From: Candidatus Eisenbacteria bacterium
GTDB lineage: Bacteria > Orphanbacterota > Orphanbacteria > Orphanbacterales > Orphanbacteraceae
DNA length: 64,000 nucleotides
Reading direction: 5' to 3'
NCBI GenBank assembly: GCA_016930695.1
Contig: JAFGGD010000034.1
Coordinates: forward strand, 261,375 to 325,374
Shown: piece by piece, positions 47,710 through 50,256 of the stretch
Numbering within the stretch: the first letter of the stretch is position 1
How the letters are laid out: each line of letters starts with the position of its first letter
Translations under genes and position numbers: made by a program
Notes under the pieces: model-generated
Seen by the model: only the letters and a program-made list of their open reading frames with translations
The model's database searches: none
Told to the model about the DNA's origin: nothing

Positions 47710-48323
47710 CGGGACGGACGGTCATCTTCGGGGGGACTTTCGACCCGATCCATATCGCCCACCTCGCCCTGGCGGAGGGAGCGGCGGATGAACTGGGCGC
47801 GGAGAGAGTTCTCTTCGTTCCCGCCGGAACGCCGCCGCACAAGGGGGGGGCGCGTCTCTCCGCCGCGAAGCAGAGGCTCCGCATGGTGGAGTTGGCGGTT
47901 CTCGGAAACGATCGATTCGCCGTCTCGCGGGTCGAGATCGACCGGGAGGGGCGATCCTACGCCGTCGACACGATCCGGCAGATCGCCCGGGAAGAAAACG
48001 GGGGGCGCCCGCTCTATCTGATCGGCGCGGACAGCTTGGCCGATCTGGGTTCCTGGCGGGAGCCGGATGCGATTCTCGAGGAAGCGGAGGTGGTCGTGGC
48101 GCCGCGCCCCGGTTTCGATCCGGAACGCGCCCCGGGCGACCGCCGCGGGAGGGTGCGCGTGCTCGCGACTCCTCGGCTCGATCTCTCCGCGACGGCGATC
48201 CGTGAAAAGGTTCGTCGCGGCGAATCGATACGCTATCTGGTCCCGGACGCGGTTCGCGATTACATTGAGCGGCACGGTCTTTACGTCGAGAGGAAGGAGC
48301 GGGGTGATGGCGCGGCGGGATGA
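47706..48323 (+). CDS. nadD: Nicotinate-nucleotide adenylyltransferase
   Basis: The product is 205 residues. The nucleotidyltransferase motif [12 protein letters not shown] is at the N-terminus, [10 protein letters not shown] is the substrate loop, and [20 protein letters not shown] is the ISSTxIR-type C-terminal motif. It converts NaMN and ATP to deamido-NAD. GTG at 47706 overlaps the bamD stop (GTGA). The usual rsfS neighbour is absent. It overlaps the ribonuclease G gene by 17 nt. Confidence 0.96.
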
Positions 48324-49869
48324 CGGGATCTATACCGAGATCATCGTGAACGTCAATCCGAACGAAACGCGCGTGGCGATTCTGGAGGACCACGAGTTGG
48401 TGGAGTTTCTCCCCGAGCGGGCCGAATCGGCGCGACAGGTGGGCGACGTGTACAAAGGGCGGGTCAACGCCGTGTTGCCCGGCATGCAGGCCGCCTTCAT
48501 CGACATCGGCCACGAGAAGACCGCTTTCCTTCACGTCTCCGACATGGTCATGCCCGATCCCGAGAGCATGGAGGCGGAGGGGGGCGGCGTCGCCGAACGG
48601 CACGAATCGCGGACGCGCAAGGTTCCCCGGGACGTCTCCATCGAGGGACTCCTCAAGAAGGGGCAGGAGATCGTGGTCCAGGTGACCAAGGAACCGATCG
48701 GCACCAAGGGTCCGCGGGTCACCACGCAGATCAGCCTCGCGGGGCGGTACGTGGTTCTCATGCCCGGCATTCCCCAAATCGGTGTTTCCAGAAAGATCGA
48801 GGACGCGGAGGAGCGGGCGCGACTGAGGGGGTTGGTGCAGGAGCTCACGCCGGCGGGGATGGGCGTCATCGTTCGAACAGTGGGGGCGGGGAAGGACAAG
48901 CGCCAGTTCGCCGCGGACATCCGCTATCTGGCCAACGTGTGGAAGAAGGTTCGGAAGGCGGAGCAGAAGCTCCCCTGCCCGTCGGTCTTGCACAAGGAGT
49001 TGGGGCTCACCACCGGGCTTATTCGCGACCTGTTCAACGAGGAAGTGGATCGTCTGATCATCGATTCCAAGAAGGAATACCGGCAGATTCTGCAATACCT
49101 CGGTTCCACGGCGCCGGAACTCAAGGAGAGGGTGCACCTCTACCAGGAAGAGACGCCGATTTTCGACGCCTACGAGATCGAAAACGAGGTGGAGAAAACG
49201 CTTCTTTCCAAAATCTGGCTGAAGCAGGGAGGCTACATCATCCTGGAGCAGACCGAGGCGCTGGTCACCATCGACGTGAATACGGGGCGTTACATCGGCG
49301 AACGGGACCAGGAAGAGACGATATTCCGAACCAACATGGAAGCGGTGAAGGAGATCGCGAGGCAGCTTCGTCTCCGCGACGTGGGCGGCATCATCGTGAT
49401 CGATTTTATTGATATGGAAAAGGAATCGAACCGGGAAAGGGTGGTCGAGACGCTCCGGGACGCCCTCCGGCGGGACCGTTCCCGGACGAAGGCTTTTCGG
49501 GTGAGCGAACTCGGCCTCGTGGAGATGACGCGCCAGAGGGTTCGCCCCAGCCTGTTGCACTATTTCAGCGCCCCGTGCCCGCACTGCGGCGGAACCGGAA
49601 AGCGGCTCTCTCTCCCCTCGCTGGCGATGAAGGTGGAGAGGACGCTTCGCCGCGTTTCCACCTATTGCCGGGAGAGGCATGTGCGGGTCCGTCTTCATCC
49701 GGACGTCGCGGTCGCGTTTCTGCAGGAGAACGCCGGTCGTCTCGAGGCGATCGAGAAGCGATTCCGGATCCGCGCGGAAATCGCGGACGACCCGTCGCTG
49801 GATCGGGAGGAGATCCGCGTGTTCGGGGTGAAGTCGGGGAAGGACCTGTCGGAACAGGTCACCTTCTGA
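48307..49869 (+). CDS. rng: Ribonuclease G/E family endoribonuclease
   Basis: The product is 520 residues. The N-terminal S1 domain is [20 protein letters not shown]; the catalytic core has [13 protein letters not shown] and [11 protein letters not shown] with the Asp residues that bind Mg2+; [10 protein letters not shown] is the Zn-link Cys pair. No long C-terminal degradosome scaffold exists, so it is RNase G-like in size. It processes rRNA and decays mRNA. The ATG lies within nadD, and its TGA stop (49867-49869) is the first codon of a 183-bp palindrome. Confidence 0.95.
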
Positions 49870-50049
49870 CCCGCGGGCCGAGGAGGAATCCTACTGCGGT
49901 TTCAATAAAAGGGCCGGTGAGGACGTCCTTCCTTCACCCGCTTCCTCATCGTAGCTTTGGCTACGACTCCGGGAGCGGGCTTGTCCAGGACGACCTCACC
50001 GGTCCTTCCTTGAGACCTCGCGACGGATTCTTCCTCGGCCCGCGGGTCA
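49867..50049. repeat. 183-bp imperfect palindrome after rng, nested hairpin
   Basis: The outer arms pair over 25 nt: 49867-49891 (TGACCCGCGGGCCGAGGAGG plus five bases) with 50025-50049, with one G-U-type difference. Inside, 49911-49929 (GGGCCGGTGAGGACGTCCT) pairs with 49987-50005 with two differences, the intervening 49892-49910 and 50006-50024 show partial complementarity, and the innermost stem GTAGC/GCTAC (loop TTTG, 49956-49959) is flanked by CCCGCT arms. Both tips read TGACCCGCGGG inward. No T-run follows, so it is not a simple terminator. It also supplies the rng stop codon. Confidence 0.88.
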
Positions 50050-50227: not shown

Positions 50228-50256
50228 TTGACAGGAAGGGACGCGGGTGATATAAA
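50228..50256 (+). promoter_or_regulatory. Near-consensus sigma-70-type promoter for rplU-rpmA
   Basis: TTGACA (50228-50233), 17-nt spacer, TATAAA (50251-50256): the best promoter match in the window, as expected for ribosomal protein genes. It lies about 97 nt upstream of the rplU GTG. Confidence 0.88.

Follow-up and report, generated by a model that had tools for sequence, protein, structure and literature searches.

What is a long palindrome doing at the very end of a ribonuclease gene? In the window analysed here (the whole stretch of 64,000 nucleotides from a Candidatus Eisenbacteria genome), the gene rng for a ribonuclease of the Rne/Rng family occupies positions 48307–49869 of the + strand, and its product matches TIGR00757 with an E-value of 8e-153. 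The stop codon of rng, TGA at 49867–49869, is at the same time the first triplet of a palindrome. The first-pass annotation had offered two explanations: a non-autonomous hairpin that landed at a stop codon, or a structured RNA that controls rng or the following gene, rplU. The present analysis favours the former. With a probability of about 0.75, the palindrome is an old copy of a hairpin element of ~176 bp, dispersed, MITE-like, and non-autonomous, that was inserted at the end of rng. In the following, G000 denotes the genome that contains the window (3.78 Mb in 60 contigs), other G numbers denote compared genomes, and L numbers denote loci.

The whole palindrome, to which no strand is assigned, spans positions 49867–50049 and ends in ...GGGTCA at 50049. 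The coordinates proposed for it, from the TGA of rng to the mirror-image TCA, are correct according to both the sequence and the alignment of the arms, and the covariance-model match for this copy covers 49871–50047 (169.9 bits). On the + strand, the outer stem P1 is formed by a left arm at 49867–49891, whose sequence is private to the window copy, and a right arm at 50025–50049. These arms of 25 nt show 96% complementarity, and their single mismatch is a G-U pair on the + strand, as the first-pass annotation had noticed. The next part is the conserved loop A, with the 5' side TACTGCGG at 49892–49899 (opposite strand CCGCAGTA) and the 3' side CTCGCGAC(G) at 50017–50024 (opposite strand CGTCGCGAG). 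The middle stems (P2/P3 region) have arms of 21 nt at 49909–49929 and 49987–50007 with 90% complementarity, and they are followed by the conserved loop C (TCCTTCA at 49930–49936 and CTTGTCC at 49980–49986). Further inward lie the P4 arms CCCGCTTCC (49937–49945) and GGGAGCGGG (49971–49979) and, at 49949–49966, P5 with its apical loop, TCGTAGC-TTTG-GCTACGA, with the conserved loop D (TCA / CTCC) on either side. The apical TTTG loop had thus been read correctly. Of the three concentric stems described earlier, the outer stem of 25 nt and the middle stems were seen again; in fact, there are five stems and four conserved internal loops. The predicted RNA fold of the window palindrome has an energy of -133.9 kcal/mol (z = -14.7), which none of 200 shuffled sequences equalled.

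This structure is not confined to rng. Twenty matching places were found in G000 by a DNA search and 20 by a search with the loop pattern, and about 27 copies, partial ones included, were found with a covariance model (R1) built on an alignment of 22 copies (A1). All copies share one anatomy, in which the stems P1 to P5 have private sequences and conserved motifs lie between them. As read on the + strand of the window, these motifs are TACTGCGG / CTCGYNACG for loop A, GGGCTGCGAG / CTCTCGCCTC for loop B, CTCCTTCGCC / CTYGTCC for loop C, and TTCCTCAT / YTCCGG for loop D around the apical stem. The 3' side of loop C, CTYGTCC, is present in 22 of 24 G000 copies. The two sides of loop A are 133 nt apart in most copies (range 131–135), and the length of the element is fixed at about 174–179 bp. 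One element, L015, is nested in the apical loop of another, degenerate one. The outcome that would have spoken against a mobile hairpin, a single copy with no compensatory substitutions, is therefore not what was found: the copies are many, and their stems change in pairs.

Further repeats lie next to some copies. On the right flanks of seven loci (L007, L008, L012, L014, L017, L019, and L035), there are tandem direct repeats made up of the right half of the element and the downstream flank, whose units measure 75–77 bp at L035 and L007. Stem sequences differ in these additional right halves, the loops are the same, and left halves are missing. To the right of L003, L005, L006, L009, L011, L019, and L028 lies another dispersed repeat, made up of CCTTCGGGGCACGGTCCGGATGCTTCCGCATCC and adjacent sequence; it occurs at 18 sites in G000 and is absent from G001, G003, and G006. 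Roughly every second copy of the element is close to the end of a contig, and this end then lies almost always to its right. At L010:1362-1770, the element stands between a truncated 5' half of tRNA-Pro on its left and an intact tRNA-Pro(CGG) on its right.

The model was also applied to relatives of the window's genome. It found 26 copies in G003 and 45 in G006, two genomes from another genus of the same family, and one copy in G004. Most of the G003 and G006 copies look like classic MITEs, with ends CCTGGATTATGCA...TGCATAATCCAGG and CTAG or TTAA flanking both sides. Three of the features expected of a MITE, namely multiple copies with unrelated flanks, terminal inverted repeats, and an empty site in relatives, are seen in the element. 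The inverted repeats are of the CCTGGATTATGCA type in G003 and G006, whereas the paired ends of the window copy are a private sequence. In four loci (L064, L070:1855-2097, L124, and L125), about 65 bp that form an extended hairpin of their own are inserted in the apical loop, and this insert is nearly identical in L070, L124, and L125. At the rng–rplU locus itself, six relatives (G001–G006) have rng, a short spacer, rplU, and no hairpin. The hairpin at rng is therefore clearly an insertion. The palindrome belongs to a dispersed family of hairpins that is probably mobile. The proposal of a non-autonomous hairpin at a stop codon is supported by the many divergent copies (about 27 in G000, 26 and 45 in the two relatives) with their differing flanks, by the empty rng sites, and by the tetranucleotide YTAR found next to the element outside G000.

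Outside G000, YTAR (CTAG, TTAA, TTAG, or CTAA) is present on both sides of 33 of 84 copies and on one side only of 28 more. The two tetramers are identical in 25 of these 33 copies (CTAG 20, TTAA 4, CTAA 1), and since they differ between the sides in others, a true duplication is seen for part of the copies only. In G000, YTAR lies on both sides of 1 of 22 copies, and no target-site duplication is visible at rng. The window copy, flanked by CTGA and TCAA, has no intact YTAR and lacks the terminal repeat of the relatives. The stop codon of rng is TAG preceded by C or T in four of the six relatives, where the TAG of G005 was read from the sequence and an earlier in-frame TAA is also listed for it. 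The closest two, G003 and G006, have TGA and no element, so the rng site may not have been YTAR at the time of insertion.

In all groups, many copies also begin right at a stop codon, mostly in sense orientation. Of 24 copies in G000, 12 start no more than a few bases away from the stop of a sense gene upstream, and no copy adjoins the stop of an antisense gene. In G003, G006, and G004, together with one copy of G049, 29 copies adjoin a sense stop vs. 9 an antisense stop (p = 8e-4, overlaps removed). The abutted stops are mainly TAG and TAA in a CTAG, TTAG, or TTAA context, with CTGA in some copies. In distant copies, TTAG, CTAG, CTAA, and TTAA stops are likewise found one base from the element. 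Some copies follow tRNA genes, and those behind tRNA-Leu(GAG) and tRNA-Gln(CTG) recur at the same position in three genomes from two genera. From these observations, a mode of insertion can be proposed. The element would insert at YTAR, within which the stops TAG and TAA can be read, and a YTAR flank kept or duplicated on both sides would leave the gene its stop. Given the self-complementarity of CTAG and TTAA, the palindrome would run through the stop and its mirror image, which at rng read TGA...TCA. The ends may be recognised mainly by the fold and the loops, since the terminal sequences vary between lineages and the length and loops do not.

There are also indications of which strand matters. 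In the stems of the G000 copies, non-canonical cells of the + strand are A-C in 49 cases and G-U in 17 (55 vs. 19 when counted from the model alignment), and each A-C cell of the + strand is a G-U pair on the opposite strand. The minus strand, usually antisense to the gene, folds better in 20 of 22 G000 copies, by a mean of 11 kcal/mol, and the consensus energies are -127.5 kcal/mol for the minus and -107.7 kcal/mol for the plus strand. In the opposite-strand consensus, 57 of 64 pairs co-vary, and this strand is also the better folder in 13 of 15 distant copies. G000 has two exceptions, and the window copy is one of them (-133.9 kcal/mol for + and -129.0 kcal/mol for -). On the opposite strand, the loops read CGAG vs. 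CGCAG in A, CGCAG in B, and CGAAG in C, recurrent purine-rich internal loops that we take to be of the kind able to form tandem G-A pairs. The copies of G003 and G006 show no such bias (69 A-C and 66 G-U cells), and the surplus of A-C thus characterises the copies of G000. The strand recognised during movement would be the one opposite to the gene.

Can the palindrome serve transcription at this locus? A scan of both strands found no T-run terminator at the rng hairpin, which bears out the earlier remark that no T-run follows it, and the palindrome was for this reason rejected as an intrinsic terminator of rng. Its position immediately past the rng stop would suit such a role, and copy L009 has TTTTT after its outer stem and resembles a terminator that holds the element in its loop; with no T-run at rng, termination there is nevertheless the least probable of the readings considered. 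A probable rplU promoter, TTGACA-17-TATAAA, was read by eye at 50228–50256 on the + strand, 3' of the hairpin and ahead of rplU (ribosomal protein L21, 50353–50691, + strand). The promoter scan listed no match at 50228–50256; it missed TATAAA because it demands a second hexamer that ends in T. Similar promoter-like elements are present ahead of rplU in the relatives. Since this likely promoter is downstream of the palindrome, the palindrome was rejected as an rplU leader, and the hairpin forms part of the rng transcript, at its 3' end. It probably persists there as a passive structure of great stability, and a role in the protection of the mRNA 3' end is conceivable.

A further property of the family is the covariation of its stems. 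In alignment A1, both sides have changed in 53 of 63 stem pairs, the share of paired stem cells is 92.7% (68.6% in shuffles), and covariation scores 0.649 (0.198 in shuffles), a value that none of 500 shuffles reached. When the partners are slid by one column as a control, pairing falls to 42–52%. Some bias towards the structure is expected because A1 also served to derive it, but the effect is much too large to be explained in this way. Paired columns thus co-vary above both shuffles and slid controls, as is expected of a functional structured RNA. The compensatory changes proposed as a mark of such an RNA do exist, but they mark the fold of the family and not a regulator specific to rng. A local, rng-specific RNA is rejected by the many copies and the empty rng sites. 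The suggested control of rng or rplU is not supported: the same element stands behind many unrelated genes and tRNAs and is absent at rng in the relatives, it is followed, not preceded, by the likely rplU promoter, and its better-folding strand is usually the opposite one. A broader version holds that the element is a structured non-coding RNA or 3'-UTR element selected at gene ends, for 3'-end protection or processing, and that its spread is secondary. The covariation, the 12:0 sense orientation in G000, and the copies kept in place behind tRNA-Leu(GAG) and tRNA-Gln(CTG) all agree with it, as does the way in which orthologous tRNA-linked copies change in pairs (19 double vs. 8 single changes in L070/L082) and an orthologous MITE-type pair singly (0 vs. 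5 in L104/L113). We nevertheless consider this version unlikely: the strand that folds better is usually antisense to the upstream gene, no antisense promoter is shared by the copies (the mean score on the right flank shows no excess, although rng has one good match), the relatives have no element at rng, and Rfam contains no match to it.

How the arms change together is a separate matter. L070 and L082, the G003 and G006 orthologues behind tRNA-Leu(GAG), differ by 19 double Watson–Crick and 8 single changes, and L071 and L075, behind tRNA-Gln(CTG) in the same genomes, by 5 and 5. For the MITE-type orthologous pairs, the counts are 0 double vs. 5 single (L104/L113) and 1 vs. 7 (L086/L091). The elements of L070 and L082 are 70.7% identical, and their left flanks, including the tRNA, are 94% identical. 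This pair changes too fast for stepwise compensation, which points to copying between the arms or to replacement by another copy, the latter being conceivable because the right flanks next to the element are not homologous. Template switching has been described as a mechanism able to maintain hairpins and to account for multi-base compensatory changes (PMC8794818). Stem covariation might therefore be a product of replication template switching between the arms (quasi-palindrome correction) and not of selection for RNA structure, a reading that concerns arm change only and is compatible with the mobile element. It accords with the published mechanism, with the scarcity of G-U intermediates in G000 stems (17–19 G-U vs. 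49–55 A-C), with recent copies that co-vary out into the terminal inverted repeats, and with the mostly matched changes of the tRNA-Leu element. The two MITE-type pairs with mainly single changes, the internal loops, which have not been erased, and the possible replacement of the fast tRNA-Leu copy weigh against it, and we place it somewhat below an even chance. Between selection and arm copying in general, there is a slight preference for a mutational contribution.

The main reading, a dispersed MITE-like hairpin, raises the questions of how far the family extends and what moves it. Relatives of the element occur in several bacterial phyla. In a survey with the model, 16 of 386 genomes, from about a dozen families, match at E <= 1e-5, and the copies of the Planctomycetota MAG OFTM394 have E-values from 4.5e-8 to 2e-5. 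Terminal sequences vary by lineage (CCTGGATTATGCA, CCTGCATTTCTCACC, CTCTGTCTGAAAAG, and GAGCCTGTCGGAGTAA), and the length of 174–179 and the loops are constant, although loop conservation in distant matches is partly a selection effect because they were found with a model of this family. Against the 4227 models of Rfam, the element and its distant copies remain below every gathering threshold, with sub-threshold matches at chance level. The phages, plasmids, and viral contigs searched contain no match to the element, and an origin from them was rejected. Among organisms with the exact core pattern, a Clostridia MAG, a Deltaproteobacteria MAG, and a Spartobacteria MAG fell short of a model E-value of 1, and Sporomusa sp. 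KB1 reached only 0.018. The pattern matches of Clostridia, Sporomusa, and Deltaproteobacteria look by eye like similar long hairpins and are leads, not members. A contig of a Clostridia MAG carries a DUF3800-I RNA at L189:3835-3965 (RF02969, E 5.6e-8). In G041, the terminal repeat TARCCYGGATTATKCA is matched 81 times in forward and 78 times in reverse orientation, with several pairs about 180 bp apart; the model finds only 4 copies there, which indicates a large divergent subfamily.

Model searches for IS1380, IS1182, and IS1634 in the fragmented element-bearing genomes found no transposase with matching ends. An autonomous partner with such ends is not a strict requirement for a MITE, but it would fix the classification of the element. 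IS1380 and IS1182 gave weak or partial matches, none over the cut-off, and were rejected as mobilisers. An IS1634-family IS is present in G003 and G049; in G003, it has CTAG flanks and ends CCCGACTTCCGCAGTT (CCCGACTTCCGCA) that are loosely similar to those of the element, but they differ from them, and it was rejected as well. Could a single-strand REP-associated tyrosine transposase (RAYT) move the element as a REP-like sequence? Of 11 element-bearing genomes, 10 have a Y1 (RAYT-type) transposase, as against none of three family members without the element, and such an enzyme would be in keeping with structure-defined ends and a preferred strand. The single Y1 transposase of G000 (L250:641-1600 and 2684-2797, G000:C27, NF047646), however, lies amid its own, different REP copies (GTAACCAGATNC..., GTAACCAGAT...), it has no palindrome elements nearby as cognate repeats, and G072 carries the element without a Y1 match. 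RAYT was rejected as the mobiliser, and this route seems quite improbable.

A wider picture is offered tentatively, with somewhat less than even confidence: the element may represent a mobile family of several phyla, undescribed in the searched libraries, that colonises stop codons and leaves the genes intact, whose arms co-evolve base for base, and whose ends and mobility are defined by how a single strand folds (length, stems of any sequence, and recurrent CGAG/CGCAG purine loops) and not by terminal sequence. If this is true, it would amount to a harmless-landing strategy in which a target tetranucleotide that contains a stop lets the element enter gene ends while the stop is retained. Dozens of diverged copies with intact pairing would form a natural test set for selection on RNA structure vs. 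template switching. They also carry a warning, as very strong covariation does not imply a regulatory RNA of the neighbouring gene.

There are several known systems with which the element can be compared. Like bacterial MITEs, it is short and gene-free, with inverted ends, many copies, and, in relatives, 4-bp YTAR flanks, and the IS1634-family IS of G003 shares with it CTAG flanks and a loosely similar end. It differs from MITEs in its lineage-dependent terminal sequences, in the lack of a matching transposase in the searches, and in being one nested hairpin throughout, with conserved internal loops and a constant length. ERIC and NEMIS/Correia-type intergenic palindromic repeats are dispersed, co-transcribed with neighbouring genes, and form a stable hairpin, and in this respect they resemble the element. 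These repeats, however, keep their sequence and have the target TA, whereas in the element the stems turn over, the loops, length, and fold stay, and the target is YTAR. The attC site of integrons is an imperfect palindrome just past a stop codon in sense orientation, with an opposite strand that folds more stably and with a conserved structure and variable sequence, all of which recalls the element. The hosts of the element, in contrast, are ordinary chromosomal genes and tRNAs, and there are no end boxes: none of the attC boxes GTTRRRY / RYYYAAC was read by eye at the ends of the window copy, TGACCCGCGG...CCGCGGGTCA. REP, BIME, and REPIN sequences with their RAYT are also palindromic, extragenic, near gene ends, and structure-based, but REPs measure 20–40 bp (PMC3733652) vs. 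~176 bp for the element, and the cognate repeats of the G000 RAYT are different. Hairpins shaped by template switching (PMC8794818) share with the element the matched multi-base changes in both arms and the few wobble intermediates; there, the hairpins belong to RNA genes, whereas here they belong to a mobile-type repeat with conserved unpaired loops.
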